Of a stretch of 42,158 nt of DNA, positions 9,903 to 42,158 are shown piece by piece. Positions within the stretch are counted from its first letter, which is position 1, and each line of letters begins with the position of its first letter. Position numbers and translations under genes: made by a program. The stretch is from an uncultured Lachnospiraceae bacterium (GTDB taxonomy: Bacteria; Bacillota; Clostridia; Lachnospirales; Lachnospiraceae). The notes under the pieces were generated by a model. It saw only the letters and a program-made list of their open reading frames with translations, searched no databases and was not told where the DNA came from. The DNA is taken from contig CANQUA010000023.1 of NCBI GenBank assembly GCA_947626915.1, forward strand, positions 1 through 42,158. Reading direction: 5' to 3'.

Positions 9903-9907
9903 GTACG

Positions 9908-10018
9908 TTGTTTGATTTCAATAATAAAAAGACGAAAAAAATCGTTTCGTCGATCATCGTGATCTTGTTGGTTCTGGCGATGGTAGCGCCTATGGTGCTG
10001 GGGTCTCTGCGTTTCTGA
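9908..10018 (+). CDS. 36-residue single-pass membrane peptide
   Basis: TTG 9908 to TGA 10018 encodes 36 residues: a short basic head (FDFNNKKTKK) and one hydrophobic helix ending [15 protein letters not shown] lies about eight bases before the TTG, at the end of the exonuclease gene; a GTG at 9899 is too close to it. Peptides of this form often precede VanW-family genes in Lachnospiraceae, as here. Its job is unknown; it may be a membrane partner of a larger protein. Confidence 0.6.
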   Translation: MFDFNNKKTKKIVSSIIVILLVLAMVAPMVLGSLRF

Positions 10019-10057
10019 GACGGACGGTAAACGGAAGAAAAAAGATCGAGAGCTGCG

Positions 10058-11746: not shown

Positions 11747-11771
11747 TTTTCGGGCAGCGAGGCCAATATCT

Positions 11772-12359: not shown

Positions 12360-12363
12360 GAAA

Positions 12364-14018: not shown

Positions 14019-14053
14019 GCGCATCGCGGCAGCGGGAGGAGACGGTCTGAGGG

Positions 14054-14566
14054 ATGAATGTAGTGCTGCTGGAGCCGGAGATGCCGGCCAATACGGGAAA
14101 TATAGGGCGCACCTGCGTGGCGACAAATACCAGGCTTCATCTGATCCGGCCGCTGGGGTTCCGCCTCAATGAAAAAATGCTGAAACGCGCCGGCCTGGAT
14201 TATTGGGACAAACTGGACGTAACCGTTTATGATGATTACGAGGATTTTCTGGCCCGCAATCCCGGTGCGAAGCTCTACATGGCGACCACGAAAGCCCGCC
14301 GGGTCTACACGGAAGTCCGCTATGAGCCGGACTGTTACCTGATGTTCGGCAAAGAAAGCGCGGGTATTCCGGAAGAATTGCTGCTGGAGAATCAGGCCGG
14401 CTGCGTCCGCATTCCCATGTGGGGTGATATCCGTTCCCTGAACCTGTCGAACGCGGTGTCCATCGTCCTGTACGAGGCGCTCCGCCAGAATGGCTTTGAG
14501 AAAATGACGCTGCAGGGAAATCTGCACAGGCTTCAGTGGGCGGAAAGGCCGGGACAGGACAGCTGA
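14054..14566 (+). CDS. trmL: tRNA (cytidine/uridine-34 2'-O)-methyltransferase TrmL
   Basis: The product has 170 residues, the normal TrmL length without extra domains. SPOUT motifs are NVVLLEPEMPANTGNIGRTC (1), LMFGKESAGIPEEL (2) and RIPMWGDIRSLNLSNAVSIVLYEA-type motif 3 (trefoil knot, split here by its usual spacing). It methylates the wobble ribose of tRNA-Leu in known cases. It follows the aminotransferase by 35 bases and probably shares its transcript. Confidence 0.94.
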   Translation: MNVVLLEPEMPANTGNIGRTCVATNTRLHLIRPLGFRLNEKMLKRAGLDYWDKLDVTVYDDYEDFLARNPGAKLYMATTKARRVYTEVRYEPDCYLMFGKESAGIPEELLLENQAGCVRIPMWGDIRSLNLSNAVSIVLYEALRQNGFEKMTLQGNLHRLQWAERPGQDS

Positions 14567-14624
14567 ACGGTTACAAATTTTATAAATTTTCTCTTGCAAT
14601 TCAGTGGTAGAACGGGAATACATG

Positions 14625-14633
14625 TGGTATAAT
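14625..14633 (+). promoter_or_regulatory. Extended -10 promoter for rubredoxin
   Basis: TGGTATAAT gives an extended -10 box (TATAAT at 14628-14633). The -35 region is weak. The transcript would have a leader of about 120 bases before the rubredoxin ATG, in which I see no known riboswitch. Confidence 0.45.
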
Positions 14634-14762
14634 TTAGAGAAACAAATCCCCGGCGATTTGTCAGACGGCCTGCGGCGGCCCGGCGGAAGGGAGCGGCCGG
14701 ATGCAGGACGGTCATAAAATGAATCCCCTTAGAGCAGGGAAACGGAGAAAGGAGCAGTGATT

Positions 14763-14921
14763 ATGAAACGGTATGTGTGTTTAGTGTGCGGTTATGTGTA
14801 TGATCCGGAGGAAGGCGATCCGGAGAATGGCATCGAGCCCGGAACCGAGTTTGAGGATCTTCCGGAAGACTGGGTGTGCCCGATTTGCTATGTGGGTAAA
14901 GATCAGTTTGAAGAGGAATGA
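14763..14921 (+). CDS. Rubredoxin
   Basis: The product has 52 residues from ATG 14763, with AAGGAG nine bases upstream. The iron site is complete: [15 protein letters not shown] gives two cysteines (Cys6, Cys9) and [15 protein letters not shown] gives the other two. It carries single electrons in the cytoplasm, in anaerobes often to oxygen- or peroxide-reducing proteins. It stands alone, with its own promoter and terminator. Confidence 0.95.
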
Positions 14922-14936
14922 TAAAATCGACCGAAT

Positions 14937-14996
14937 AACAGGCCCTGATACCGGGCGGCGATCATTTGCCGGCGGCTGTCAGGGCCTGTTGTTTTG
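14937..14996 (+). terminator. Terminator between rubredoxin and the convergent yhaN-like gene
   Basis: AACAGGCCCTGA (14937-14948) pairs perfectly with TCAGGGCCTGTT (14979-14990), followed by GTTTTG. The 30-base loop can itself pair (CCGGGCGG region). It may also stop the convergent gene. Confidence 0.75.
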
Positions 14997-15010
14997 ACAG
15001 AAAATCGTTT

Positions 15011-16873: not shown

Positions 16874-16876
16874 GGG

Positions 16877-17950
16877 TCAGCTCCTTTCATCGGTAGTGCG
16901 CAGCAGCGCGTTAATGCCGTAGTAGAGCGCTTTCTTCTCTACGGGGCTCGGGTCCGGTTTATCCAGGGCGCGGATATAAAATCCGATCATGTCGCTGGGA
17001 TGCTCGGCGAACAGAGCGCTGAAATCGTACTGGGGTTCCGATTCGTCGATCAGTTCCACGATCCGGTATTTGGAGAGCAGGCGCTCCAGGTCGAATTCCA
17101 CGTCCGGGTCCCGCATACCGCGGATACGGAACCGGTAAATATGGTGCGCCCCCCGCTTTTCCATCTCCTGGGAGATTTTCAGTTCCAGCTCCATGTTGGT
17201 GGTGTGGGGCGTAATATTGACGATCAGCGATATGTACTGGGAGCGGCACAGGGGCAGGAACTCCAGGGATTCCACCTGCCTGGTCACGGGATTGATGCTG
17301 CCCAGATAGACGCCGTGCCGGCCGGTTTCGGTCAGATCCAGCGGTTCCGGGGAGCCCGGAAAAGCGGCCTTTCTCTCCAGGATCACTTCCGGTTTGTGAA
17401 TGTGTCCCAGGGCGATATAGGTGTAATTGGACGCGTTCAGCGCGGCTCTGTCAATCGGCAGGTGCGACGCGTCTCCGCCGTGGAGCATCAGGATATGGAT
17501 GCGTCCGTCCTCGGGCGCTTCCAGCAGTTCAGGGGCCGGTTTTTCACGGATCTCCGGCGAATGATAGCTGAAACCGTGAACCTCCACGCCGAAATCCTCG
17601 AAATAGACGCTCTGCATTTTATCGTCCGTCAGATAGGTGACGTTCGGGGCCCATTTGAAGTTCAAAAGCGGAGAATTATTCTGGATTCGGTCATGATTCC
17701 CGGCAATGATCACCACATGGACGGCGGGAATCGTTGAAAAAAGATAATTGACCTCTTTCAGATCCCGCTGCAGCGGCTGGCGGTGGAACAGATCGCCCGA
17801 GATAAACAGAAAATCCACGCTCCGGTCCCGCGCGGCTGCGATGATCTGCGCGAAAGTATCCCGGATCGCCTGACTGCGCTCCCGGCTCCAGGGCTTGCTG
17901 CCGTCCGGGACCATGCCCCAGTGGATATCGGCGGTGTGAATAAATCGCAT
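16877..17950 (-). CDS. YhaO/SbcD-like DNA repair phosphoesterase
   Basis: The product has 357 residues. The calcineurin-like phosphoesterase motifs are in order: FIHTADIHWG (DxH), FLFISGDLFHR (GD), IIAGNHDRI (GNHD), MLHGGDAS and ALGHIHKPEV (GHxH). It would be the Mre11/SbcD-like nuclease subunit that works with the adjacent ATPase in processing DNA ends. Gene order and spacing match yhaO-yhaN of other Firmicutes. Confidence 0.88.
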   Translation of the reverse strand: MRFIHTADIHWGMVPDGSKPWSRERSQAIRDTFAQIIAAARDRSVDFLFISGDLFHRQPLQRDLKEVNYLFSTIPAVHVVIIAGNHDRIQNNSPLLNFKWAPNVTYLTDDKMQSVYFEDFGVEVHGFSYHSPEIREKPAPELLEAPEDGRIHILMLHGGDASHLPIDRAALNASNYTYIALGHIHKPEVILERKAAFPGSPEPLDLTETGRHGVYLGSINPVTRQVESLEFLPLCRSQYISLIVNITPHTTNMELELKISQEMEKRGAHHIYRFRIRGMRDPDVEFDLERLLSKYRIVELIDESEPQYDFSALFAEHPSDMIGFYIRALDKPDPSPVEKKALYYGINALLRTTDERS

Positions 17951-25519: not shown

Positions 25520-26122
25520 ATGTATATTATAGTAGGTTTGGGCAATCCGGGGAAGCAGTACGAGCATACCAGGCACAATGCGGGGTTTGAAGTGATCGAC
25601 CGCCTGGCGGAGAAACTGGATATCCGGGTGGACGAGCGCCGGCACAAGGCTCTTTGCGGCAAGGGAATGATCGGGGGACAGAAGGTGGTGCTGGTAAAGC
25701 CGCAGACGTTCATGAACGCCAGCGGGGAGAGCGTGCGCAGCGCGGCGGATTTTTACAAGCCGGAAGCGGACCGGATCATTATCGTTTATGACGATATCAA
25801 TTTAAATCCCGGTCAGCTCCGCATCCGGGCGAAGGGCAGCGCCGGCGGCCACAACGGGATCAAAAGTATCATTGCGCATCTGGGAACTCAGGAATTCCCG
25901 CGGGTGAAAGTGGGCATCGGGGAAAAGCCGGAACGGATGGACCTGGCCGACTATGTGCTGAGCCATTTTTCCAAAGGGGAATGGGAGCGGATGGAGGCCG
26001 CGTTTCAGGAGGCCGCGGAGGCAGTCTGCATGATGATCACCGATGGGGCGGACGCGGCGATGAACCGGTTTAATGGGAAGAAGATCAATTCGGACGGGGC
26101 GGTATATGAGCAGAGTATTTGA
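25520..26122 (+). CDS. pth: Peptidyl-tRNA hydrolase
   Basis: The product has 200 residues from ATG 25520. Catalytic and substrate residues Asn9, His19, Asn66 and Asp92 are visible in GLGNPGKQYEHTRHNAGF, PQTFMNASGES and VYDDINLNPG, and GSAGGHNGIKS follows. It frees tRNA from prematurely released peptidyl-tRNA. It overlaps mfd by 17 bases, so the two are one operon. Confidence 0.96.
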   Translation: MYIIVGLGNPGKQYEHTRHNAGFEVIDRLAEKLDIRVDERRHKALCGKGMIGGQKVVLVKPQTFMNASGESVRSAADFYKPEADRIIIVYDDINLNPGQLRIRAKGSAGGHNGIKSIIAHLGTQEFPRVKVGIGEKPERMDLADYVLSHFSKGEWERMEAAFQEAAEAVCMMITDGADAAMNRFNGKKINSDGAVYEQSI

Positions 26123-29100
26123 GAATGCGTTGGCGGAACTGGCAGAGTTTGAGGAACTGAATACGGATCTGAACCGCGGGAAAGGGCCGGTGCTGATTTC
26201 CGGCTGCATGGATTCCCAGCGGGTCCATCTGATGCAGGAGGCGGGGGAACGGCTGGACTGGAAACTGGTTGTGACCAGCGACGAAGCCAGGGCAAAAGAG
26301 ATCTACGATGATTTCAGGTGCTTTGGGGACCGGGTGTGGATGTATCCGGCCAAGGATCTGCTGTTTTATAATGCGGATATTCATGGGAATCTGATCGTCA
26401 GGCAGAGGATGCAGCTGGTGAAAGCGCTGATCGAGGACGGCGGGAACCGCGGACCGGGGGAAAAAACGGCCGTTTCGGACGCCGCATCCGTTTCGCCGGC
26501 CCGCGGCGGCGTGGTCGTGACGACCCTTGACGGCCTGATGGACCATCTTTTGCCGCTGCAGGCGCTGGAGGCACAGATTCTGAGCGTGCGTCAGGGCGAG
26601 ATCATTGATATAGAAGAATGGAAGCGGAAGCTGGTGGCGCTTGGTTATGAGAGGATGGCGCAGGTGGACGGTATGGGACAGTTTTCCGTCAGAGGCGGGA
26701 TCCTGGATATTTTTCCGCTGACGGAGGAATTGCCGGTGCGCATCGAGCTGTGGGATGATGAGGTGGATTCCATCCGCAGTTTCGATACGGAGAGCCAGCG
26801 GTCGGTGGAACAGCTGGAGCAGGCGGTAATCTATCCGGCCACGGAGATTGTGCTGACGCAGAAGCAGATCGCGGGCGGGCTGGAAAAGATACGAAAATCG
26901 GCGGACCGATACGTGCAGGGGCTGCGGAAGCAGATGCGGACGGAGGAAGCCGGCCGGGTTGATTCGTTGGTGAAGGAATTGACGGAGCGGGTGGAGGACG
27001 GCTGGGGGACCGGGGGACTGGACAGCTTCATCACGTTCTTTTGTGAGGAGACCGTTTCGTTCCTTCAGTATTTTCCACGGGAGCGGACGGCCATTTTCCT
27101 GGATGAGCCGACCCGGCTGCAGGAAAAGGGAGAGACGATCGAGCTGGAATTCAGGGAAAGCATGATGAGCCGGCTGGAAAAAGGGTATCTGCTGCCGGAA
27201 CAGGCGGAACTTCTTTATTCGGTCAGGGAAACATTGGCGGGGCTTCTGGGGCCCCATACCGTATTGGTGACAGGATTGGAGCAGCGGATCCCCGGCATCA
27301 ATGTGATGCGGCGGTACAGCATCAATTCCAGAAATGTGAATTCCTACCAGAACAGTTTTGAGATCCTCATAAGCGATCTGAAGCGCTGGAAGCGGGAGAA
27401 GTACCGGGTCGTGCTGCTGTCCGGTTCCCACACCAGGGCCAGCCGTCTGGCGGGGGACCTGCGGGAGTATGAATTGAGCGCTTTTTGCAGCGACGATCCG
27501 GAGCGGAAGGTTCAGCCGGGGGAGATCCTGGTCCGTTACGGCAATCTCCATCGGGGGTTCGAGTATCCGCAGATTAAATTTGTGGTTATTACCGAGGGCG
27601 ATATGTTCGGTGCGGTCCGGAAAAAGCACCGCCGCAAAAAGGCGGCCTACGAGGGGCAGAAGATCCAGAGCTTTGCGGAACTGTCGCCGGGAGATTATGT
27701 GGTTCATGAGGAACACGGACTGGGCATTTACCGCGGGATTGAAAAGATCGAGCAGGACCATGTGGTCAAGGATTATCTGAAGATCGAATATGCCGACGGC
27801 GGCAATCTGTATCTGCCCGCCACGCGGCTGGACATAATTCAGAAATACGCAGGGGCGGATGCGAAAACCCCGAAACTGAACCGCCTGGGCGGGGAACAGT
27901 GGAAAAAGACCCGCGACCGCGTCAAAGGAGCCGTGAAGGAGATTGCCGGGGAGCTGGTGCAGCTTTACGCGGCCCGACAGGAGACGGACGGTTTTGTTTA
28001 CAGCGAGGATACGGTCTGGCAGAAAGAATTTGAGGAGCTCTTTCCTTATGAGGAAACAGAGGACCAGCTGGAGGCCATCGAGGCGACGAAAAAAGATATG
28101 CAGAGTCCGAAGATCATGGACCGGCTGATCTGCGGAGACGTGGGTTACGGCAAAACGGAAATCGCGCTGCGGGCGGCATTCAAGGCCGTGCAGGACGGCA
28201 AGCAGGTGGCCTATCTGGTGCCTACGACGATTCTGGCTCAGCAGCATTACAATACGTTTGTGCAGCGGATGAAAGAATTTCCGGTGCGCGTGGATATGCT
28301 GTCCCGGTTCCGAACGGCGGCGGAGCAGCAGAAAACGCTGATCGATCTGAAGAAAGGTCTGGTGGATATTGTGATTGGCACACACCGGATCCTTTCGAAA
28401 GACGTACAGTTTAAGAATCTGGGGCTGCTGGTCATTGATGAGGAGCAGCGCTTCGGCGTGACCCACAAGGAGAAGATCAAGCAGTTAAAACAGAATGTGG
28501 ACGTGCTGACCCTGACAGCGACGCCGATTCCGAGGACGCTTCATATGAGCCTGGCGGGCATCCGTGATATGAGCGTGCTGGAGGAACCGCCGGTAGACCG
28601 GGTTCCGATCCAGACCTATGTTATGGAATATAATGATGAAATGGTGCGGGAGGCCATCCGCCGGGAACTGGCGCGGGACGGCCAGGTTTATTATGTGTCC
28701 AACCGCGTTCAGGATATTGCCGATGTGGCGGGACATGTGGCCAGTCTGGTTCCCGATGCCACGGTGGTCTATGCGCACGGACAGATGCGGGAACGGCAGC
28801 TGGAGCAGATCATGCTGGATTTCGTAAACGGGGAAATTGACGTTCTGGTTTCCACTACGATCATTGAAACCGGTCTGGACATCCCCAATGTCAATACGAT
28901 CATCATTCAGGACGCGGACCGTATGGGTCTGGCCCAGCTCTACCAGCTCCGCGGCCGCGTGGGACGTTCCAACCGGACCGCATACGCGTTTCTCATGTAC
29001 AGACGGGACAAGATACTCCGGGAAGAGGCGGAAAAACGCCTGAAAGCGATCCGGGAATTCACGGAACTGGGCAGCGGGATCCGCATCGCCATGCGCGACC

Positions 29101-29699
29101 TGGAGATCCGCGGCGCCGGCAATGTCCTGGGCGCGGAACAGCACGGCCATATGGAGGCGGTCGGGTATGACCTGTATTGTAAACTGTTGAATCAGGCGGT
29201 GGCGGCGCTGAAAGGGCACCGGACGGAGGAAGAGGAATTCAATACGGTGGTGGAATGTGATATCGACGCCTATATTCCCTCGTCCTATATTAAGAATGAA
29301 TATCAAAAGCTGGATATTTATAAGCGCATCTCGGCCATTGAGAATGAAGAGGAGTCTATGGACATGCAGGATGAACTGATGGATCGTTTCGGAGAGATCC
29401 CGCGTCCCGTGGACAATCTGCTTCTGGTGGCGCAGCTGAAATCCATGGCCCACCGCGCTTATGTGACAGAGGTGGATATTAACCGGCAGGAGATACGGAT
29501 CGCCATGTTTCCGAAAGCCAAACTGGACACGACCGGGATCCCCGCGATCGTGCAGTCTTACGGCGGGCGGCTGAAGCTGCTGGCCGGCGATGTGCCCGGA
29601 TTCCTCTACCAGGAGGGCCGAAAGACCAACAAGGACAGCCGCGATATGATGAAAGAGGCGGAGACGCTTCTGGAGAAGCTGGGCGCGCTGGCGGAATAG
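26106..29699 (+). CDS. mfd: Transcription-repair coupling factor Mfd
   Basis: The product has 1197 residues from ATG 26106 inside the end of pth; no better start with a ribosome site is nearby. The order is that of the family: UvrB-like D1-D2 with [16 protein letters not shown], the RNA-polymerase-binding domain ([19 protein letters not shown], about residues 525-590), helicase motifs [16 protein letters not shown] (about 675), IDEEQRFGV (about 777), [10 protein letters not shown] and [13 protein letters not shown], and the C-terminal TRCF domain. It removes stalled RNA polymerase at DNA damage and recruits UvrA. It is the last housekeeping gene before the defence island. Confidence 0.97.
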
Positions 29700-30827: not shown

Positions 30828-31735
30828 ATGTCGGTTCCGAAATATTATGAGATGATTAAGCCGTTTTTAAAGCATCTGGGAGACGGGAAAGAACATCAGC
30901 TGAAGGAATTAAAAAAACAGCTGCAAAAAGATTTTAGACTTTCAAAAGAGGAACTGTCCGAACTGCTCCGAGCGGCAGACAGACGATTTTTGCGAATCGA
31001 ATCGGATGGGCCAGGACTTATTTGAAGAAAGCCGGTCTGATTGCCAGTCCGTCACGGGCTGTTTTCATGATCACAGAGGAGGGGCAGAAAGTGCTTCTGG
31101 ATGACCCGCCGGTGATCGACGTGGATTATTTGGTACGATTTGAACCATTCAGAGATTTTCTGGGCATTCCGGTATCCGGCAGTTCTGCGCAGATGTCCAT
31201 AGAGGAAGCAGAGGAGACGCCGGATGATATTTTCGAGGATGCTTTCAAGCGGATCAATCAAAACCTGAAGGACGAACTGCTCAGTGAAGTCATGAAGCTT
31301 TCGCCGGCTGCCTTTGAGCAAATGGTGCTCGACCTGATGTCCAAAATGGGCTATGGCACATTTGAAAATGCGTCCCGGACCACGGCAGTGACCGGCGACG
31401 GTGGGATCGACGGAATTATCATGGAAGATAAACTGGGCTTTGATTTAATCTATGTTCAGGCTAAGAAATGGGATAAGCAGCGTCCTGTCGGCAGAAAGGA
31501 AATTCAGGCGTTTTTTGGGGCGATCGCGGGCCGGAATGGAAAAGGATTATTTGTAACGACGTCCAGGTTTTCCGAACAGGCGATAGAATATGCGGAAAAA
31601 CAGCATATTATTCTGCTGGATGGCGACAAATTAACCAATTATATGATCGAATATAATTTCGGGGTTAATGTTAAGAAAGTTTTTGAGGTTAAGAAGGTAG
31701 ATTCCGATGTGTTTTTTGAGTATTCAGATACTTAA
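30828..31735 (+). pseudogene. mrr: Mrr-type restriction endonuclease, frameshifted
   Basis: ATG 30828 (AGGAGG upstream) begins MSVPKYYEMIKPFLKHLGDG, the Mrr N-terminal domain. The frame ends early at 31025, but the next frame carries on with NRIGWARTYLKKAGLI and then the catalytic domain: FEQMVLDLMSKMGYG, VTGDGGIDGII and DLIYVQAKKW, which give the Asp and Gln-x-Lys of the Mrr nuclease. Restoring one C at CTCCGAGCGG (30966-30975) yields the usual LLPSGRQTIFANRIGWART. Thus one missing base breaks the gene. Mrr cuts DNA with methylated or otherwise modified bases. If real, the loss would be recent because the rest is intact; a sequencing error in the C run is possible. Confidence 0.88.
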
Positions 31736-32077: not shown

Positions 32078-33547
32078 ATGCAGCGATTAGAAGCGATCAA
32101 TGAAACCTCATATCTGTCTGTCCCCAACGCCGGAACCTATCGGAAGATCATGCGTTATTTCTACCGGGAATATGAAAAAATGCACTTCCAGCTGTACAAA
32201 GAAGACGTGTATGCGCTGCTGAAAGGGGAAGATGAATTTGCGGGTTATACGATGAACCAGCTGGAGTCAGACCTGGAAGCGCTGGTGAAATGGAAGAACC
32301 TGACGCCGATCCAGGATCCGGGCAAGGTCTATACGATTCAGGATTATAAAAATAAGCAGTACCGTTATACCATGTCGGAATACGCGGTGGAGATCGAGCG
32401 GCTCACGGTGCGGCTGGAAAATCTTTTCATGGAATCGGCCAGTCTTTCCACGAATTTCTTTGTGCGGCTGGAAAAGAGCGTCGGCGAAGCTGAAATGATG
32501 CAGGACGCCGGCTTAAAAGAAGTAAATGAGTGGTGGAACCTGCTGCAGGAGGATTTTAAGCGGCTGAATCAGAACTATCAGGATTATCTGAGAGATTTTT
32601 ATTCCGGCAAGACCGAGCGTCTTATGAAATCCGTGGAGTTTGTTCTGCATAAGGACAAATTTATCACGTATCTGACGGACTTTGTGCAGGAACTGCAGCG
32701 CTATTCCAAGCGGATGGAGCAGATCCTGGTGCGGCAGACGCCGGTCATTGAAACTGTGATCCTGGAAAGAGTGGTTCAAAGCGAACTTGATATTCCTCAC
32801 GCCCTGTCAGAGTTTCGCGGCAATCTGGAGCCGAATATCCGAGAGAATGTGATAGGGAAATGGGATTCCCTGAAGAGATGGTTCGTCGACACTCCGGGAA
32901 GGGATTGCGAGAGCCGGAAGGTTTTACAGATTACGAACGACGTCATCAGAAGCATCATCCAGAACGCCGCGCTGATCGTGCAGCTGCAGAACTGGGGAAT
33001 CAGCCGCAAAGACGACTATCAGAAGTTTCTGCAGATGTTTTTGCGGTGCGGGAATTTAGAGGATGCGCACCGTCTGTCCGCTCATGTTTTCGGCGTTCAA
33101 AAGATCCGGCATTTTAAGACGAACAGCCCGAGGGAAGAGGATCGGATCAACGGCAGTATTTATGAGGAACCGCCGGCAGAATTCCAGATCAGGCCCCGCA
33201 GCCGGACCTACCGTGAGAAAAGAGACAGACGTGGGTTTTCGGATAAATCACTGGAAAAAATGATGCAGAGAGAAGCGTATCTGCAGGGCGTGAGAAACCA
33301 GGAAGAAACCGTAATGCGCTACGTGAAAGATAAGAAGATCACGTTTTCGGAAATAGAGGGACCCGTTCCGGAAATGACGAAAAATATATTTTTGCAGTGG
33401 ATCGCCATGGCGAATATGAGCTCTCAGAAATCGGGTCAGACCGAATTTGGGCAGGAATACCGGCTGCTGCAGAAAGAAGGAACATGTGTTTTAAAGTGCG
33501 AGGACGGCGATCTGACCATGCCGGCGTATATACTGGAGTTTAAATGA
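32078..33547 (+). CDS. jetA: Wadjet type II JetA (DUF2397/TIGR02677-like)
   Basis: The product has 489 residues (MQRLEAINETSYLSVPNAGT), with GGGAG eight bases before. The N-terminal winged helix (YREYEKMHFQLYKEDVYALL, LVKWKNLTPIQDPGK) and the long helical middle match the kleisin-like JetA of type II systems. In Wadjet, JetA and JetB hold the SMC-like JetC dimer, which draws DNA into loops. The C-terminal half is basic. It is the first gene of a four-gene operon with one-base gaps or overlaps between the genes. Confidence 0.82.
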   Translation: MQRLEAINETSYLSVPNAGTYRKIMRYFYREYEKMHFQLYKEDVYALLKGEDEFAGYTMNQLESDLEALVKWKNLTPIQDPGKVYTIQDYKNKQYRYTMSEYAVEIERLTVRLENLFMESASLSTNFFVRLEKSVGEAEMMQDAGLKEVNEWWNLLQEDFKRLNQNYQDYLRDFYSGKTERLMKSVEFVLHKDKFITYLTDFVQELQRYSKRMEQILVRQTPVIETVILERVVQSELDIPHALSEFRGNLEPNIRENVIGKWDSLKRWFVDTPGRDCESRKVLQITNDVIRSIIQNAALIVQLQNWGISRKDDYQKFLQMFLRCGNLEDAHRLSAHVFGVQKIRHFKTNSPREEDRINGSIYEEPPAEFQIRPRSRTYREKRDRRGFSDKSLEKMMQREAYLQGVRNQEETVMRYVKDKKITFSEIEGPVPEMTKNIFLQWIAMANMSSQKSGQTEFGQEYRLLQKEGTCVLKCEDGDLTMPAYILEFK

Positions 33548-33548
33548 T

Positions 33549-34685
33549 ATGAATGCAGTGAGAACGCTTTTTGAACAATACTGGGTCTGCAAAGATACCG
33601 ACAAAGAGGGCTATTACAGGATAAAAAGAGAGATTCCGGCGTTCCAGAGATTTATAGGGGAACAGCTGGGCTGGAAGCTGATCCATACGGAGAACCTGCT
33701 GAAGCTGGAGAAGATACCGGCGCATGCCGAAAGCTTTATGGGGATTCAGGAATTTTCGGATGTTTTAGACTATTGTATTTTGTGCGTCGTGCTTATGTAT
33801 TTGGAGGACAGAGAGGAAGGAGAACAGTTTCTTCTTTCGGAGCTGCTGGACTACGTGGAGACGAAACTAAAAGGGGAAGTTTCCATCGACTGGACGTCTT
33901 TTTCCCAAAGGAAATCGCTGGTACGTGCCCTGCAGTATATGGAAAAAATGCAGATGCTTCGGGTGTATGAAGGGAGCAGCGAGGCGTTTGGCCTGGAGCA
34001 GGGGCAGGAGGTGCTGTATGAAAATACAGGGTACTCTAAGTATTTTGCGGTCAATTTTCCCATGGACATCTCCGGTTTTGAGACGTGGGAGGATTTTGAA
34101 AAGCAGAGGTTTGAAGAGATCCAGGAGGACAGAGGGGCCGCGAGGATTCATCGTGTATACAGACAGCTTGCTGTATGCCCGGCCATGTACTGGGACGGAA
34201 ATGAGGACGCGGATTCCCTGTATCTGAAGAACCAGAGGCAGTGGGTCGCGAGGTACCTGGAAGAAAATCTGGGCGGAAAGCTGGATATTTATAAAAACGC
34301 GGCGCTCCTGGTGCTGGAGGAGGATGATTGCTACGGAAGCGTTCATCCGCGGGACGCCATGCTTCCGGAGATCGTGCTGCTCGTCTGCGCGCATATCCGG
34401 CAGGCTCTGCAAAAAGGAGAACTGGTGAAACAGGACAATGAAACGATATCGGTCACGAAGCGGCGGTTCTCGGAGTTGATCCTGGCGTGCAGAAAGAGCG
34501 GGAGCGCAGGTTGGAGCAAAGAGTACAGGGAAATGGAGAAAGACAAGCTGGCCGACACCGTGAAAGATTATATGAAAGACTGGATGCTGATCCGGGAGGA
34601 CGGCGACCGGGTGATCATTTTGCCGGCGGCGGGAAAGCAGGCGGGATTCTATCCGGAAGATTTTAAGGGGGCGGAGACAGATTGA
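33549..34685 (+). CDS. jetB: Wadjet type II JetB (DUF2398/TIGR02678-like)
   Basis: The product has 378 residues and starts one base after the jetA stop. The family pattern is visible: an N-terminal part, FQRFIGEQLGWKLIHTENLL, a winged helix (WTSFSQRKSLVRALQYMEKM) and, typically, RVYRQLAVCPAMYWDG with YLKNQRQWVARYLEE. JetB is the KITE-like partner of JetA and JetC. The stop overlaps the TTG start of jetC by two bases. Confidence 0.82.
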   Translation: MNAVRTLFEQYWVCKDTDKEGYYRIKREIPAFQRFIGEQLGWKLIHTENLLKLEKIPAHAESFMGIQEFSDVLDYCILCVVLMYLEDREEGEQFLLSELLDYVETKLKGEVSIDWTSFSQRKSLVRALQYMEKMQMLRVYEGSSEAFGLEQGQEVLYENTGYSKYFAVNFPMDISGFETWEDFEKQRFEEIQEDRGAARIHRVYRQLAVCPAMYWDGNEDADSLYLKNQRQWVARYLEENLGGKLDIYKNAALLVLEEDDCYGSVHPRDAMLPEIVLLVCAHIRQALQKGELVKQDNETISVTKRRFSELILACRKSGSAGWSKEYREMEKDKLADTVKDYMKDWMLIREDGDRVIILPAAGKQAGFYPEDFKGAETD

Positions 34686-37600
34686 GCGATCGATGGAAAA
34701 TGAATCGGATCGGATTCGTAAATTTCTGGTTATACGACGAGGAAAGCTTTGATTTTTATGACGGAAAACTCCTTTTGAGAGGACAGAACGGCTCCGGCAA
34801 ATCGATCACGACGCAGAGCTTTATTCCGTTTGTCCTGGACGGCGACCGCACGCCGAGCCGCCTGGATCCTTTCGGTTCCAGCGACAGAAGGATGGAATAT
34901 TATTTCCTGGGGGAAGAGGGGAGAGACGAGGCGACCGGGTATCTTTTTCTGGAGTTCAAAAAAGAGCATACAGAAGAATACCGTACCATAGGAGTCGGAC
35001 AGCGGGCTAAACGCGGCAAACCCATGGATTTCTGGGGATTCCTCATTCTGGACGGGCAGAGGATCGGGTATGATCTGCAGCTGTATAAAGAGACCGGAAG
35101 CACCCGGATTCCTTATGACAAGAGAGAAATGAAGGCCGTGCTGGGAGAGGGCAATCTGTTTACCGACAGCCAGAGCGAATACAAGAGGCTGGTCAATCAA
35201 TATATCTTCGGCTTTCGGAAGGCGGAGCAGTATGAGCAGTTCATCCGGCTCCTTGTAAAAGTGCGTGCGCCGAAGCTTTCCAAGGAATTCAAGCCGACTA
35301 AAGTATATGAGATTCTAAACGAATCCTTACAGACTTTGTCGGATGAGGACCTGCGCACGATGGTGGAAGCCATGGAGAAGATGGATGAGATTCAGGACAG
35401 TCTGGATATGCTGAACCGCGCGTTCGCGGATGTGAAGATCATCCGAACGGAGTATACGCGCTATAACCAGTATATGCTGGCGAAGAAAGCACAGTTCTAT
35501 CTGAAAAAGAAAGCGGAAACGGAAAGCGCGCGGCAGGAATACGAGGAAAAACAAAATGAAGCGAAGGAGCTTAGCGATGCGCTGCGGGAGCTGGGTGTTC
35601 GTCTGAGCGATCTCGCTGAGCAGAAACGCCTGGCAGAAACGGAACGGGACGGTCTGCTGGACGCAGATCTGCAGGATATCGACCGCAAGATGGAAACGGC
35701 CAGGAAAGAAATGGCGGAAATGCAGGAAAAAGAGCGCAATCTGGCCGAAAAGATCGATGAGTATCAGGCGAGAATTTACCGAAAAGAACAGGAAATAAAA
35801 GAACTTCAGGATATGCTTGAAGAGCACCAGGACATGCTAAGACATCACAAGCAGAGTATGGAGGAGCATCAGGAGATACTGAAGTGGGACGGACATGAAA
35901 AAGTCCTGCGCTTGATCGACATGGAACGGACCGGTGGGGAGGAGGAGATCTCCGACAGTTTGCTTCTGTATAAAAAGCTGGTGGGAGAATGCAGGAGGCT
36001 GCTTCACGACTTCGAAGAGATCTCGCGTAAATACGACGAAATTGCCGAGGAGCTGGAGCGTACCGGCAGAGAGAAGCAGGAGAAAGAGCAGGCGCTGGAG
36101 AATGTGCAGCAGCAGGTGCTTGGGAGCCGGGATCATTGGATCGAGAGGCTGTACGCCCAGGCCAGGAGCGCCGAATGCTGGAAACCGCAGGCATCTCTCT
36201 TAAAAGAAGCGGAGGAGCGGATCCGGCAATATCAGAACATAGCGGACGCGGGTCAAATCCGGGAACGGTTCCGAAAGGATTATGAGAATCAGAGGGCGGA
36301 GCGGCTGGAAGAGAAGCAGGCGGTTCTGCAGGAGCTCCATTTATGTGAGGAACAGCTGGATACCGCGCGGCAGGAGCTGGCCGACATACAGAGCCGGGAA
36401 GAGATCGAGCCGGACAGAAGCGAGAGTACGTTATATTCCAGGCAGCGCCTTGAGGCAGCCGGGATCGATGCCGTTCCCTTTTACCGGACGGTAGAGTTTG
36501 CCGGCGGGCTGCCGGAAGCGGAGCGCGCGAGGCTGGAAGCGCAGTTAGAACGTATGGGGCTGCTGGATGCCCTGGTCGTGTCGGAAACGGATTACGCGCG
36601 AATCGCGGAGTCGTGTCCGGAGTTTCTGGATACGGTGATCTATGCGCCGCAAAAGGGCAGTTCCGGCTTTTCCAAATTGACAGTAAGCGAAGAACTGGCG
36701 CCGGCGCTGGCGGAAAGCGTTCGGAAGATATTAAGCAGTATTTATGAAGAAGCGGGGACGCAGACCGGCGTTTATCTCGGAGAGGACGGACGGTTTCTGC
36801 AGGGGATCTTAGCGGGAAAGGCAGAGAAAGCGGAAGCCGAATTTCTGGGATATCTGGCGCGTCAACGGAAAAGACAGAAGCAGATAGAGGCCCTGCAGCA
36901 GGAAATTTCAGAAAGAGAAGAGGAGCTTCTGCGCCTGCGGGAGAAAGACGCGGACGCCGGTCAGAGGTTAGAGCGGCTGGAAGCGGAATACAAGAGTTTC
37001 CCGGACTTTTATGAACTGGATCAGGCGCTGGGATGTGAAAAAGAGTGCAGCGCGGAATTGGATCGTATCAGCGGGGAATATGCAAAGCAGGAGCAGCGGG
37101 AAAGGGAGTGGGCGGCAAAGAAGCAGTCCCGGTATCAGGAAGTGCTTCAGAAATGCAGGCCATTTCCCTATGGCCGGACGGAAAACGAGTATGACGAGGT
37201 ATTGAATACTCTGGAGGAATATCAGCATACCTGGCAGGAATGCAGGGGGCTGTTTTTGAAGCTGGAAACGGAGAGAGACCGGATTTTGGACCGGAGCGAT
37301 TCTCTGGAGCGGGACAAGCAGGGCATGGATGACGCTTTTGTAGATAAGCGTTCCTGCGGAGCCAGGATAAAAGAGTGTGAGATCAAGATCCGTCAGTATG
37401 AAGAATATTTAAACAGGCCGGAGATCGCGGAGAAAGCCAGACGTCTGGAGCAGCTGCAGAGGGAGATCAAAGAGACAGAAGAGCAGGAAAGAGCCTGCAA
37501 TGAAGAGCGTATTCGAAAAGACCAGATGCTGGAAAACCTGCAAAGATCTGAGCCGGAAAAGCGTAAGCGCCTGCAGGAACTGATCGCGGAGGAGACGCTT

Positions 37601-38746
37601 CTGCGTGCATTTTTTGAGGAAGAACTGTCGCTGAAATTAGTGCTGGAAAGAGAGAACCGCACGCTGGCGGACTGCGCGAAGGAGGCCGTCAAGCTGCTGC
37701 GCGACAGCGATAAGAACCGCGAGTATGGGGAAATGCTGCAGGCATTGGTCCAGGTGTATCAAAAACATAACGGCAGCCTTGCCAGTTACGGGACCTCGAT
37801 AGAGGAATGCTTTGAATCGGCGGGAGAGCAGCCGGGCGTGGGCGCACAGTTCCAGGCTCTCCGGAAAAGAGTCCGTGTGGTGTCCGCATGGAACGGGAAA
37901 AAGGTGTCTCTGGAGGAATTTTATCAGATCCTGAAATCAGCGATCGACGAGACGGAACTGCTGATTCAGCAGAAGGACCGGGAGCTGTTCGAGGATATCC
38001 TGTCGCAGACCATCAGCCAGCAGCTGACGGACCGGATCGCGGAAAGCCGAAGCTGGGTCAGGGATATGTCGAATCTCATGAAGCAGCTGGATACCTCCAT
38101 GGGGCTTACCTTTTCGCTGGAATGGAAGCCGAAAAGCGCGGAAAATGATACGGAACTGGACACGCTGGAGCTGGAGCAGATATTGCTGCGGGATCGCGAG
38201 CTGATGACTGTGGAGGACATTGAAAAGGTCGCGGGACATTTCCGGAGCAAGATCCGCATGGAAAAGATGCGACTGGAGGAAGAGGGCAGCCTGATCAACT
38301 ATATGGAGCTGGTCCGCGACGCGCTGGATTACCGGAAATGGTTTGAATTTCAGATGTTCTACAGGCGGGGCGAAGAGAACAAAAAGCCGCTGACGAACGC
38401 GGCCTTTAACCGGTTCAGCGGCGGCGAGAAGGCAATGGCGATGTATGTTCCTCTCTTCGCGGCCGTAAACGCCCAGTATAAGAAGGCGGATTACGAGGAA
38501 CATCCGCGGATGATCGCGCTGGACGAGGCGTTCGCCGGGGTGGACGATAAGAATATCAGCAGCATGTTTGAACTGGTAGACAAGATGGATCTGGATTATA
38601 TTATGAATTCCCAGTCTCTGTGGGGCTGCTACGAAACGGTAAAAGGGCTCAAGATCGCGGAACTCCATCGGCCGATGAACTCGCAGATCGTGACGGTGAT
38701 CCGCTACACATGGAACGGGCATGAAAGGATATTAGATGTGCAATAA
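34682..38746 (+). CDS. jetC: Wadjet type II JetC, SMC-like ATPase (TIGR02680-like)
   Basis: The product has 1354 residues. TTG 34682 is preceded by AAGGGGGCGGAG; ATG 34700 is an alternative. The ATP head has NFWLYDEESFDFYDGKLLL, Walker A GQNGSGKS (residues 34-41) and FGSSDRRMEYYFLGEE; very long coiled coils (about residues 260-1180) surround a central hinge (about 590-730); near the end are the signature NRFSGGEKAMAMY (about 1243) and Walker B MIALDEAFAGVDD (about 1277). It is the loop-extruding motor of Wadjet, which senses small circular DNA. Confidence 0.92.
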   Translation: MSDRWKMNRIGFVNFWLYDEESFDFYDGKLLLRGQNGSGKSITTQSFIPFVLDGDRTPSRLDPFGSSDRRMEYYFLGEEGRDEATGYLFLEFKKEHTEEYRTIGVGQRAKRGKPMDFWGFLILDGQRIGYDLQLYKETGSTRIPYDKREMKAVLGEGNLFTDSQSEYKRLVNQYIFGFRKAEQYEQFIRLLVKVRAPKLSKEFKPTKVYEILNESLQTLSDEDLRTMVEAMEKMDEIQDSLDMLNRAFADVKIIRTEYTRYNQYMLAKKAQFYLKKKAETESARQEYEEKQNEAKELSDALRELGVRLSDLAEQKRLAETERDGLLDADLQDIDRKMETARKEMAEMQEKERNLAEKIDEYQARIYRKEQEIKELQDMLEEHQDMLRHHKQSMEEHQEILKWDGHEKVLRLIDMERTGGEEEISDSLLLYKKLVGECRRLLHDFEEISRKYDEIAEELERTGREKQEKEQALENVQQQVLGSRDHWIERLYAQARSAECWKPQASLLKEAEERIRQYQNIADAGQIRERFRKDYENQRAERLEEKQAVLQELHLCEEQLDTARQELADIQSREEIEPDRSESTLYSRQRLEAAGIDAVPFYRTVEFAGGLPEAERARLEAQLERMGLLDALVVSETDYARIAESCPEFLDTVIYAPQKGSSGFSKLTVSEELAPALAESVRKILSSIYEEAGTQTGVYLGEDGRFLQGILAGKAEKAEAEFLGYLARQRKRQKQIEALQQEISEREEELLRLREKDADAGQRLERLEAEYKSFPDFYELDQALGCEKECSAELDRISGEYAKQEQREREWAAKKQSRYQEVLQKCRPFPYGRTENEYDEVLNTLEEYQHTWQECRGLFLKLETERDRILDRSDSLERDKQGMDDAFVDKRSCGARIKECEIKIRQYEEYLNRPEIAEKARRLEQLQREIKETEEQERACNEERIRKDQMLENLQRSEPEKRKRLQELIAEETLLRAFFEEELSLKLVLERENRTLADCAKEAVKLLRDSDKNREYGEMLQALVQVYQKHNGSLASYGTSIEECFESAGEQPGVGAQFQALRKRVRVVSAWNGKKVSLEEFYQILKSAIDETELLIQQKDRELFEDILSQTISQQLTDRIAESRSWVRDMSNLMKQLDTSMGLTFSLEWKPKSAENDTELDTLELEQILLRDRELMTVEDIEKVAGHFRSKIRMEKMRLEEEGSLINYMELVRDALDYRKWFEFQMFYRRGEENKKPLTNAAFNRFSGGEKAMAMYVPLFAAVNAQYKKADYEEHPRMIALDEAFAGVDDKNISSMFELVDKMDLDYIMNSQSLWGCYETVKGLKIAELHRPMNSQIVTVIRYTWNGHERILDVQ

Positions 38747-40049
38747 CAAAGAGTGCGCCGGGTATCTGAAGAAAAATGAGGCCTATGCAAGGCTCATGAG
38801 TGAACTTCGGAAAAAATGGAAAAGCTTCGGGAGAACGGCGGGCAGCGTGACGCTGAAAAACGCCACGGAAGCGGAGAGGCGGGCAATCGGCGGTATCGTT
38901 GGAAAGTCTTTTGCGGACGGAACCGTAACGATCACATTTCAGGAATTTGAGCAGGGACTGCAGAAAACCCGTTTTGCGCCGGTCGATATGAAAACGGTGC
39001 TGGAGGAGTATTTCGCGATTCCATTGCAGACGAACCAGGAGCAGAAAGACCAGGTGCAGAGGGAGAGAGAAGAATTTTTCGGAAGACTTCTGGCCTGCTT
39101 TGAGGGCTGTGGCGAAAACAGGCCGGCGGCGTTTCATTGGCTCCGGGAGATGCAGAGCCGGAAAAAGTATGGCTATCAGATCCTGATAAAAGAATTTACC
39201 AGAGAGCCGCGGGCCGCGGAAATTCTTGCCCGAAACGTGGGCAGCGCATTGAATTGCCTGGAAGAGACGGAGGGAGAAGAGAGCCTTTTAGCAGTATTTG
39301 CGGCAAATATTTCCGGGAATCCGCACTATTTTGACAGGGGAACCGTGGCCGGGCAGCTGCTGACGCATGCGGTCTGCTTCTGGAAGAACACGGATGTACC
39401 GCAAAGTGCGTATGGATGGCGGGAGTGTATGCAGTCGGTGGGGATCGTGCCTGACAATATCGCCAGTATGGTTCATGCATTTGGCGTGCGGCTGGAAGCG
39501 GCGGACGGACCGCATCCGGCTTACGAGGCGTTCTATCGCCGAAGAGAACCCTATGTACTCACCGCGGAAAATCTGAGATCCATTACGGGCGCAAAAGCGG
39601 ATCATAACATGGTATATGTCGTTGAAAATGAAATGGTCTTTCTGTATTTAGTGGAGAATGCGAAAGACCGGGACGTTTCGGTTTTGTGTACGTCCGGACA
39701 GCTGCGCGCGGCCGCGATCCGGCTGCTGGATCATCTGGCTGAAAGCGGCGCGACCATTCACTACAGCGGAGACCTGGATCCGGCCGGAATGGATATTGCG
39801 GACCGGTTGTGGCAGCGGTACGGGGACCGGCTTCAGCTGTGGAGGATGGGGGCGGAGGACTACCGGGAGTCGATGTCCGGCGAAGCGATAAGCGACGGGC
39901 AGCTGGCCAAGCTTAGACGGCTGAAGAACGCGGCGCTGTGTCAGACGGCGGAACTGGTGCAGAAAGAAAAGCTGGCGGGGTATCAGGAGAATTTATTGGG
40001 AAAGCTGCTGGAGGATGTGCTGGGCGGGCGTAGAATGTATGAGAGATAG
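38736..40049 (+). CDS. jetD: Wadjet type II JetD nuclease (DUF2399/TIGR02679-like)
   Basis: The product has 437 residues and overlaps jetC by 11 bases. The N-terminal half (ELRKKWKSFGRTAGSVTLKN, LEEYFAIPLQTNQEQKD) is the TIGR02679 arm-like part. The C-terminal Toprim-like domain has the metal-binding glutamate in VVENEMVF (about residue 296) and the DxD motif in YSGDLDPAGMDIADRLW (Asp346 and Asp348). JetD cuts the plasmid trapped by JetABC. All key residues are present, so this Wadjet looks active. Confidence 0.88.
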   Translation: MCNNKECAGYLKKNEAYARLMSELRKKWKSFGRTAGSVTLKNATEAERRAIGGIVGKSFADGTVTITFQEFEQGLQKTRFAPVDMKTVLEEYFAIPLQTNQEQKDQVQREREEFFGRLLACFEGCGENRPAAFHWLREMQSRKKYGYQILIKEFTREPRAAEILARNVGSALNCLEETEGEESLLAVFAANISGNPHYFDRGTVAGQLLTHAVCFWKNTDVPQSAYGWRECMQSVGIVPDNIASMVHAFGVRLEAADGPHPAYEAFYRRREPYVLTAENLRSITGAKADHNMVYVVENEMVFLYLVENAKDRDVSVLCTSGQLRAAAIRLLDHLAESGATIHYSGDLDPAGMDIADRLWQRYGDRLQLWRMGAEDYRESMSGEAISDGQLAKLRRLKNAALCQTAELVQKEKLAGYQENLLGKLLEDVLGGRRMYER

Positions 40050-40086
40050 GAATGGATGGTACACTATTCGTCTGCTATAAGAAGAG

Positions 40087-40230
40087 ATGAAAATACTATT
40101 CGTCTGCCACGGCAATATCTTAAGAATGTCCCGAAAAGCCAGTAAAATCGATGGTTCCACGAATCGGAAAGGCGCTTGCTACACCACTATTACACCATTT
40201 GGGAAAGAGTTTTGGTATAACGCATTGTGA
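40087..40230 (+). pseudogene. Low-molecular-weight tyrosine phosphatase, N-terminal remnant
   Basis: ATG 40087 begins MKILFVCHGNI, the P-loop start of low-molecular-weight protein tyrosine phosphatases, whose next residues are normally C-R-S. Here they are LRMS and then unrelated residues (RKASKIDGSTNRKGACYTTI) up to TGA 40230, so the catalytic Arg-Ser part has gone. A 13-bp repeat ACTATTCGTCTGC, part of the P-loop codons, is duplicated just upstream (near 40063). The gene's C-terminus survives at 40921-41085 on the far side of a toxin-antitoxin pair. Confidence 0.65.
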
Positions 40231-40237
40231 AATGAAG

Positions 40238-40266
40238 TTGCTTTTTTAGGTATAGTTTGGTATAAT
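40238..40266 (+). promoter_or_regulatory. Promoter of the Phd/RelE pair
   Basis: TTGCTT (40238-40243), a 17-base spacer and TATAAT (40261-40266). TTGGTATAA occurs twice (near 40212 and 40257), once over the -10 box, a possible antitoxin operator. Confidence 0.65.
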
Positions 40267-40314
40267 ACAGGAGATGATAAAATTAAGATAAAATTTTGAT
40301 AAGGAGTGTTGGTA

Positions 40315-40575
40315 ATGTTGCAGATCAGACCAGTTTCGGATTTAAGAAACAAATTTCCTGATATTGAAAAAATCGTAAATGCAGGAGAACCGGTTTATTT
40401 GACAAAAAACGGATATGGAGCAATGGTGGTACTTAGTTTAGAGGAGTATTCCAAACTGACAGACGGCGTAGAGTTGGCTTTAGATAGGGCAGATAAAGTG
40501 GCAGAGGGAAGCAGCGATCGGATGAACCATGAGGAGGTTTTTGGAAGTTTACGGAGGAAACTGAATGTACGGTGA
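40315..40575 (+). CDS. Phd/YefM-family antitoxin
   Basis: The product has 86 residues from ATG 40315, placed eight bases after AAGGAG; a GTG at 40306 overlaps that site. The Phd/YefM N-terminal fold is clear: MLQIRPVSDLRNKFPDIEKI, EPVYLTKNGYGAMVVLSLEEY. The C-terminal part (AEGSSDRMNHEEVFGSLRRK) would block the toxin. Members bind their own promoter. It overlaps the toxin gene by 11 bases. Confidence 0.92.
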   Translation: MLQIRPVSDLRNKFPDIEKIVNAGEPVYLTKNGYGAMVVLSLEEYSKLTDGVELALDRADKVAEGSSDRMNHEEVFGSLRRKLNVR

Positions 40576-40894
40576 AAAGTACAGATTACGTTATTTGCCG
40601 CTTTTCTACGAGGATCTCGATGAAAAGATAACTTATATTGCAGAAGAATTAAAAAATCCGAAGGCTGCGAGTGATTTATTGGATAAGGTGGAAACTGCTA
40701 TTCTAAAACGACTCCCGGTGGCAGAATCTTTTGAGCCATATCATTCTCTCCGGGAACGCAGGTATGCCTATTATCGTATTTATGTGGATAATTATGTGAT
40801 TTATTATGTGGTGATAGATGATGACCCAGGTGATATGATCATGGAGGTAAGAAGGTTTCTCTATAATGGGCAGAATCAGGGAAAGATAGTGTAG
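40565..40894 (+). CDS. RelE/ParE-family toxin
   Basis: The product has 109 residues (MYGEKYRLRYLPLFYEDLDE). The family's helical start, PYHSLRERRYAYYRIYVDNY and final strand MIMEVRRFLYNGQNQ are present, the last with the arginine pattern of RelE-type ribonucleases. It is paired with a Phd-type antitoxin, a frequent mixed combination. It differs clearly in sequence from the RelE at 6295-6624. Confidence 0.9.
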   Translation: MYGEKYRLRYLPLFYEDLDEKITYIAEELKNPKAASDLLDKVETAILKRLPVAESFEPYHSLRERRYAYYRIYVDNYVIYYVVIDDDPGDMIMEVRRFLYNGQNQGKIV

Positions 40895-40920
40895 AAAGTT
40901 TAGGCTGAGTTGTGTTTGAC

Positions 40921-41085
40921 ATGGATGCATATTATTTAAGAAAGCTTTTTAATATACTTCCTATTGTGGAGAGTATCGCGGGCCCGCGGTATACCGGAGA
41001 TTTCGGGACGACTTGCGCGGATGTGCTGGAAGGGTGCCTGGCGCTGGCGGAACGGCTGACCGGTGTGTGTATAAAAAACCATTAA
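40921..41085 (+). pseudogene. Low-molecular-weight tyrosine phosphatase, C-terminal remnant
   Basis: ATG 40921 to TAA 41085 encodes 54 residues. MDAYYLRKLFNIL resembles the MDxxNLRxL helix and AGPRYTGDFGTTCADVLEGC resembles the final DPWYTGDFETTYRDVLEGC-like segment of the family. The residues usually between these two parts are missing, as is the catalytic core. Base composition turns GC-rich from 40975, unlike the AT-rich toxin genes before it. Together with 40087 it marks the ends of one broken gene. Confidence 0.7.
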
Positions 41086-41114
41086 AACTGTTATAAGATG
41101 AAAGGTCGTTAGCT

Positions 41115-42158
41115 ATGCCCAATCAGTTCAGTCAGATTCCGGACACATTTTGGAGTTTATTCCGTTCCCGGAACCGCCAGATTTATATCGATGCCCTTCT
41201 CCGGATAAATGAAGAATATCAGTACAGTAATTATTATTTAAGCCGGGAAATCTGCGTACAGACCTTAAGTGATTATTTCGCCAAACGAAAAGTGATTATG
41301 GAGCAGGATGAACTGGAAGATGACTTTGATTTGATGGAGCCGCCGACCATCCGGATCCTTAATTGGCTTTTGAGGACCCAGTGGCTCCGAAAAGTGGATG
41401 ATTATGAAGCCATGACAGTCAATATTGTGATTCCCGATTATGCCGCGGTTTTTGTGGATGCCTTTGTGCATCTGGCCGGGGAGGACGAGGATGATACCCA
41501 GGTCTATATTCAGAATATCTATTCTATTTTATTTGCTTTCAAAAATGACCCGCGTTACAATATTTCCCTGTTAAAAACGGCATTGATTAATACCAGGCGG
41601 CTGAACAAAACGCTGCAGGACATGCTCCATAATATGGATCGGTTTTTCGGGAGCCTTCTGGAGCAGCAGTTTTACGGAGATCTGCTGCGGGAACACCTGG
41701 ATGGATACGTGGAAGAGATCGTTCGTAAAAAATACCATATTTTAAAAACATCCGATAACTTTTATCTGTATAAGACGGATATCAAACGATGGCTCAGAGA
41801 AATGCGGCAAGATACGCCCTGGCTTGATCAGGTATGTCTGCGGAATAAACAGCTGCGTGGGCTGGAGATTCAGGCAGATGAACTGGTGGAGCAGCTGAAT
41901 CAGATAGAACGGGGATTTGATGATATCGAACACCGGATTTCCAATATGGACAGAGAGCATACCAGGTACATAAGGGCTACGGTAACCAGGCTTAACTATC
42001 TTCTGAATAAAGAGGACAATATGAAAGGCCTGGTCATAGATCTTCTGAATCATCTGTCCGAGGCAGGGGAAGAGCAAAGGACGGAAGATATGGGGAAAAT
42101 CGGAGCGCTTATGAACCTGTCCCAGATGACCGTGATTTCCGGGAAGTCCCTGTATAAA
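41115..42158 (+). CDS. Start of a second Wadjet operon: DUF5716-type JetA (partial)
   Basis: An open frame of 348 codons starts at ATG 41115 (AAAGG upstream) and runs off the window without a stop. It begins MPNQFSQIPDTFWSLFRSRN. The pattern (winged helix TIRILNWLLRTQWLRKVDDY, VNIVIPDYAAVFVDAF, IQNIYSILFAFKNDP, then LLREHLDGYVEEIVRKKYHI and LKTSDNFYLYKTDIKRWLRE) is like the JetA family of type III Wadjet (DUF5716). It has no clear likeness to the type II JetA at 32078. The downstream JetB-C-D genes should follow outside the window. The family call rests on recalled pattern only. Confidence 0.65.
   Translation, partial: MPNQFSQIPDTFWSLFRSRNRQIYIDALLRINEEYQYSNYYLSREICVQTLSDYFAKRKVIMEQDELEDDFDLMEPPTIRILNWLLRTQWLRKVDDYEAMTVNIVIPDYAAVFVDAFVHLAGEDEDDTQVYIQNIYSILFAFKNDPRYNISLLKTALINTRRLNKTLQDMLHNMDRFFGSLLEQQFYGDLLREHLDGYVEEIVRKKYHILKTSDNFYLYKTDIKRWLREMRQDTPWLDQVCLRNKQLRGLEIQADELVEQLNQIERGFDDIEHRISNMDREHTRYIRATVTRLNYLLNKEDNMKGLVIDLLNHLSEAGEEQRTEDMGKIGALMNLSQMTVISGKSLYK

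Follow-up and report, generated by a model that had tools for sequence, protein, structure and literature searches.

Two types of Wadjet anti-plasmid system meet on one strand of a 42,158-nucleotide stretch of DNA from an uncultured Lachnospiraceae bacterium (contig CANQUA010000023.1 of GenBank assembly GCA_947626915.1, hereafter the window). A complete type II Wadjet operon, jetA-jetB-jetC-jetD, lies at 32078–40049, and a type I jetA gene begins 1.07 kb after it (Table 1; suffixes 2 and 1 mark the genes and proteins of the two types). The best explanation, which we consider probable, is that the region downstream of the housekeeping gene mfd is a defence island in which a complete type II Wadjet was stacked with a separately inherited type I module, that each works as a known Wadjet does, and that their adjacency reflects opportunistic clustering. 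The pair is then a rare arrangement of known parts, understandable as defence-gene stacking, and a natural setting for comparing type I and type II Wadjet in one host.

The complete type II operon named in the original prediction is confirmed by PADLOC, Pfam and NCBIfam, which agree on all four genes. The genes are full length, in order, on one strand, and abut or overlap each other. JetA2, JetB2, JetC2 and JetD2 are the best PADLOC matches of the four products, and the NCBIfam matches to TIGR02677 (32078–33547), TIGR02678, TIGR02680 and TIGR02679 each pass the curated cut-off. The JetC2 translation shows GQNGSGKS, SGGEK and IALDEAF, which we take to be the Walker A, signature and Walker B motifs, and the ATPase motifs of the type II motor are intact. 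An acidic GDLD motif is readable in JetD2. JetA2 and JetC2 are sequence relatives of the solved complex 9qe0/9qe1, presumably the Neobacillus vireti type II Wadjet structure; JetD2 gave only a chance-like match to solved-structure sequences. A type II Wadjet structure from Neobacillus vireti is named in the reference list of PMC12647877. The operon shares with known type II Wadjet (TIGR02677/02678/02680/02679; 9qe0/9qe1) all four genes, their order, their families and the ATPase motifs. Its neighbours differ, and nothing structural was found to be different. By family membership, it should act on plasmids.

The gene at 41115–42158 is the start of a type I JetA. It matches both PADLOC JetA1 and Pfam PF18982, in line with its earlier reading as the DUF5716 JetA of another Wadjet type. 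The open reading frame (ORF) covers the first 348 codons on the strand of the type II operon and is open at the contig end. The two JetA proteins are unrelated in sequence, as had been noticed, with no meaningful BLASTP similarity (24 bits, E = 0.008 in a single comparison), and the genome holds one copy of each JetA family. JetA1 is a clear member of Wadjet type I (JetA DUF5716, JetB DUF4194, MukB-like JetC, JetD DUF3322/DUF2220; the same as MksBEFG). It differs from that system in that only 348 jetA codons are in this assembly and in belonging to a lineage that is often without jetD. The window takes up all of contig C23 in assembly G000, which comprises 3.18 Mb in 107 contigs and is rated 99.4% complete. 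Because the contig ends inside jetA1, the claim of a second system rests on one truncated gene and its relatives. All four genes are present in the nearest relative, by which the second system would be complete. Of the predicted two systems side by side, the presence of both types and the completeness of type II therefore stand, while the completeness of the second is unproven since a DNA search and a JetC1 protein search of G000 did not find type I JetB, JetC and JetD.

Table 1. Features of the island and its left edge.
Feature	Coordinates	Strand	Evidence
mfd, housekeeping gene, left island edge	26073–29699	+	TIGR00580 1141 bits, cut-off 800
ORF, 154 amino acids	30312–30776	+	No family match in PADLOC, Pfam or NCBIfam
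Mrr-like type IV restriction enzyme	31022–31735	+	PADLOC mREase_IV E = 1e-61 from profile position 68; Mrr_cat E = 4e-34
jetA type II (kleisin)	32078–33547	+	PADLOC JetA2 E = 5e-184; DUF2397; TIGR02677; solved JetA 9qe0_E E = 2e-62
jetB type II	33549–34685	+	PADLOC JetB2 E = 6e-146; DUF2398; TIGR02678
jetC type II, SMC (structural maintenance of chromosomes) motor	34682–38746	+	PADLOC JetC2 E = 0; TIGR02680; Pfam SbcC Walker B; solved JetC 9qe0_A E = 6e-183
jetD type II nuclease, DUF2399 C terminus	38736–40049	+	PADLOC JetD2 E = 3e-140; DUF3323 + DUF2399; TIGR02679
Phosphatase relic, N-terminal 13 codons	40087–40125	+	tblastn 77% over 13 amino acids, E = 1e-4; 35-bp DNA match to L014
Phd/YefM-family antitoxin	40306–40575	+	PF02604 E = 6e-11; TIGR01552
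ParE-family toxin partner	40565–40894	+	PF05016 E = 7e-6, above cut-off
Phosphatase relic, C-terminal part	40942–41058	+	tblastn 51% over 39 amino acids, E = 4e-9
jetA type I (DUF5716 kleisin), partial	41115–42158	+	PADLOC JetA1 E = 8e-183; Pfam JetA PF18982 E = 7e-107

The nearest relative of the window JetA1 is 98% identical and is encoded in another uncultured Lachnospiraceae bacterium (locus L005, on contig C63 of genome G023). This locus has an intact JetA1-JetB1-JetC1-JetD1 operon with every gene assigned by PADLOC. Comparison with solved-structure sequences gave weak Rad50 head matches only for JetC1 and nothing for JetD1 or for the window's own JetA1. Next to the operon in L005 lie a type III restriction pair and a TOTE-like primase-helicase (Pfam AEP-TOTE), which places the type I module in defence-gene surroundings in that genome as well. 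No type II Wadjet genes were found in the 17.8-kb locus. The window and L005 are 92% identical over 40994–42158. The type I module thus has an upstream boundary of its own and occurs in L005 with no type II genes, and the two modules have separate histories. Genome G023 and the window are 98% identical in JetA1 and only 85% in Mfd. In the 11 other same-genus genomes for which both JetA1 and a full-length Mfd match were available (G003 lacks the latter), JetA1 identity minus Mfd identity ranged from −4 to +7 points. A recent exchange of the type I block between the window's species and that of G023 is therefore probable. The genus search found JetA1 in 14 of 26 genomes, the window's included.

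The gap between jetD2 and jetA1 holds a broken low-molecular-weight phosphatase gene, and a Phd/ParE toxin-antitoxin pair (40306–40894) sits between its two pieces. The first piece begins about 38 bp after the jetD2 stop codon. L005 retains the C-terminal relic and three scraps of 39–41 bp from the Phd/ParE stretch. The same phosphatase family (cluster c19) is found upstream of jetABC, with other genes between, in five same-genus loci (L008, L011, L012, L014, and L030), and it is also present in a sixth same-genus type I locus, L015. On these grounds, the type I module, the phosphatase relic and the toxin-antitoxin pair look like one inherited block. The type II and type I sequences would join within 40050–40225, or within 40050–40086 if the first 13 phosphatase codons belong to the type I block. 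The guanine-plus-cytosine fraction is 0.57 in mfd, 0.53 in jetC2, 0.55 in jetD2, 0.38 in Phd/ParE, and 0.45 in jetA1.

The gene spoVT starts 102–228 bp after mfd in 12 of 20 same-genus loci. In the window genome, it lies on contig C84, 1.8 kb from the contig start and behind an aldo/keto reductase gene. The direct adjacency of mfd and spoVT in the 12 loci, with spoVT elsewhere here, supports insertion of the island between these two genes, and island stacking downstream of mfd, one of the two explanations first offered, is supported by the same comparison. The island reads as separate modules, namely the Mrr-like gene, the type II Wadjet, the phosphatase relic with Phd/ParE, and the type I Wadjet.

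In each system, JetABC would act as an SMC loop-extruding motor that pulls in small circular DNA and thereupon switches on JetD, which would cut the circle. JetA, JetB, and JetC are the kleisin, KITE, and SMC subunits (PMC10586767), and JetD cuts once extrusion of the DNA circle by JetABC is complete (PMC12647877). We infer plasmid cutting by both systems, and for type I, this action depends on the unseen jetD. Conjugative plasmid uptake was far more frequent in Clostridium cellulovorans without jetABCD (PMC12287153). The adjacency is most likely opportunistic clustering of defence genes and not a joint machine.

Several observations weigh against this interpretation. The type I JetB, JetC, and JetD genes sought after jetA1 were not found; the window cannot be extended past 42158, and a DNA search of the G000 assembly with the L005 type I operon (7803–17811) matched only the window. 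A search of G000 with the JetC1 protein gave two weak partial matches (E = 5e-6, 33% over 88 amino acids; E = 0.03); the JetB1 and JetD1 proteins were not searched separately. The two JetC1 matches were provisionally taken as other ATPases. A type I locus without jetD (L020) belongs to the smallest well-supported group, of four rows, that holds the window JetA. spoVT is apart from mfd in three of the same-genus loci (by 955 bp in L125, by 5.0 kb and on the opposite strand in L130, and by 11.9 kb in L133). It was not seen in five of the 20; the contig stops soon after mfd in two of these, L119 and L132, and continues for 11–14 kb in L131, L134, and L135. The link between contigs C23 and C84 is inferred. 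No other fetched locus matches across 40050–40225, where a contig mis-join is possible. Family membership is no guarantee of activity, as shown by Cupriavidus necator, where removal of a putative type III Wadjet left electroporation and plasmid stability unaltered in the tests made (PMC12645576).

The alternative that survives best is that the second system is a nuclease-less, MksBEF-like JetABC motor, which would leave the window with one Wadjet and one chromosome- or plasmid-handling SMC complex. It has a real but small likelihood and draws on the relatives of JetA1. The 80 loci nearest the window JetA1 (the best 80 of 169) were scored for jetD by a six-frame profile search of the fetched locus, with absence defined as no profile match with at least 1.5 kb beyond jetC. 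Of these loci, 16 have jetD, 49 lack it, one has a fragment of it, and 14 could not be decided, so within the fetched loci it is absent in 49 of the 66 decidable cases. At least 12 changes of jetD state, losses or gains, are forced by well-supported branches of the JetA tree. Shuffled jetD labels required a mean of 14.6 changes, and 29 of 500 shuffles were as low as 12. The jetD state is only slightly more clustered than chance and therefore almost unlinked to kinship. Sister loci with the same flanking genes differ in jetD; L046 has it and L050 does not, and the same is true of L032 and L036. Neighbouring genes include a uvrA-like one at 14 of the 80 loci and a CTP-synthase-like one at nine (clusters named by eye).

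Where jetD is missing, the motor genes remain intact and under strong purifying selection. In 47 of the 49 loci without jetD, each of jetA, jetB, and jetC is open over its full length; jetC is split in the other two, L045 and L083. All 43 jetD-less loci that passed a stricter first gene picker encode the Walker A, signature, and Walker B motifs. The ratio of nonsynonymous to synonymous substitution rates (dN/dS) was 0.007–0.102 in six pairs without jetD (one JetC value was saturated and one JetB was not picked), similar to the 0.032–0.105 of one pair with jetD, and was 0.041–0.106 in two mixed pairs, with several of the underlying dS values above 1. The JetB alignment columns gave no clear mark for jetD presence; the difference at four columns is one of weaker conservation of an unchanged residue. 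Some genomes hold a jetD-less jetABC and a second, divergent jetABCD (G071, loci L034, matched by its coordinates, and L240; G274, loci L241 and L242), which makes a nuclease acting in trans possible in such genomes. Set against a nuclease-less second system in the window is the intact jetD1 of its nearest relative, 98% identical in JetA1, and jetD1 is also present in four loci of a neighbouring same-genus group.

These relatives lie outside the window, and the optional nuclease of the type I lineage is a more interesting lead than the pair itself. The gene content of those without jetD matches that of MksBEF, the MukBEF-like SMC complex without MksG, but on the JetA tree of type I Wadjet they are interspersed among armed members, and any MksBEF-like function is putative. 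It is quite possible, though short of probable, that the nuclease is optional in a Lachnospiraceae JetABC lineage, with jetD lost or gained many times while the motor stayed strongly constrained, and that JetABC has a job of its own. This lineage would then show the proposed transition from anti-plasmid Wadjet to an MksBEF-type condensin while it is under way, sister species carrying armed or unarmed copies at one chromosomal site. According to PMC7083940, the nuclease-free MksBEF of Pseudomonas aeruginosa is assumed to work on the chromosome, while Corynebacterium MksBEFG acts on plasmids. The relatives suggest that a Wadjet motor can persist with no nuclease gene linked to it. This bears on a possible origin of MksBEF/MukBEF-like chromosome organisers from defence SMC complexes, raised as speculation in PMC10586767 (section 7). 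No report of jetD loss in Lachnospiraceae was found in a literature search that lay outside most subscription papers. A JetA match, or even a JetABC match, should not by itself count as an active Wadjet.

A second alternative is that selection brought or kept the two types together, each type covering plasmids, or withstanding counter-defences, that the other does not. We hold this to be clearly unlikely. In its favour, the two types are sequence-unrelated at JetA, and a review suggests different substrates or evasion for type II and type III (PMC10586767, section 7). The distribution of the two families argues the other way. Among 397 family genomes, DUF2397 exceeded its cut-off in 36 and the JetA family PF18982 in 108. 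Both were found in seven (G000, G052, G054, G195, G228, G302, and G388, with JetA2 a fragment in G052) compared to 9.8 expected (Fisher p = 0.33), and in six of 396 compared to 9.5 expected when the window genome is omitted (p = 0.23). Co-occurrence of the two types at the genome level is not above chance, which gives no support to a selected pairing and fits opportunistic stacking. Only the window genome has both families on one contig; each of the other six uses two contigs. Contigs C5 and C130 of G054 were considered as an adjoining pair and rejected, as C5 continues past jetD2 with other genes for about 3 kb and the type I of G054 is only 23–25% identical.

Six-frame profile searches of the flanking DNA also bear on whether tandem carriage is unusual, as it had been called. 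Type I genes were found in none of 105 fetched type II stretches, and type II genes in none of the 80 type I loci; the type I profiles are mostly Lachnospiraceae-derived, and very divergent type I systems could escape them. The type II stretches came from family, order, and phylum samples and represent 104 places, since G849 was sampled twice. A first gene-picker count placed type II genes in 104 stretches and missed L233, and the six-frame recount found them in 105 of 105. Flanks of at least 4 kb were available on both sides in 63 of the 104 type II stretches, and at least 9 kb upstream in 56 of the 80 type I loci. Genomes with a fragmentary JetA2 were left out, four of the 36 family genomes over the cut-off (G115, G280, G157, and G137) and five of 66 in the phylum sample (G852, G918, G948, G1105, and G823). 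Because the assemblies are fragmented, the pair counts are lower bounds.

Plasmid searches gave 22 and 14 records with a match, and a single one of these held both types. In one defence island, Cupriavidus taiwanensis plasmid NZ_CP016951.1 carries a complete type I operon at 316009–322939 and a complete type II operon at 345472–353862, and this co-residence of two complete types counts in favour of selection. Like the window, the plasmid has a toxin-antitoxin pair between the types, together with an ABC-three-component system (names as annotated). It differs in that the operons are 22.5 kb apart on opposite strands with other genes between them, on a 578-kb plasmid from another phylum. The survey of other genomes for both operons thus found no adjacent pair in the fetched loci and this one more distant pair. 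Pairing of type I and type II Wadjet is rare, though the Cupriavidus plasmid shows that it is not unique. No description of adjacent type I and type II Wadjet was found in the literature, in a search that most subscription papers lay outside. Apparent mentions of type II in PMC10740426 and PMC11305592 proved to concern type III.

The least likely alternative, which we rate as improbable, is that the contig joins two loci at about 40050–40225, as the lack of a match across this junction in the other fetched loci, the abrupt stop of the contig in jetA1, and the failure to find the rest of the operon in a nearly complete genome could indicate, but the type I side is unbroken from the phosphatase relic and Phd/ParE into jetA1 in an order common to L005, and the phosphatase family is also found upstream of this jetABC in six same-genus loci.

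Two further observations concern tandem type II carriage and the upstream part of the island. Contig C61 of G849 (L179 and L222) carries two tandem type II operons, the first of which has only opposite-strand jetC pieces between jetA and jetD. In the window, the Mrr-like gene looks broken or mis-assembled, since its N-terminal part (starting near 30829) and its catalytic domain are read in different frames, as judged by eye.

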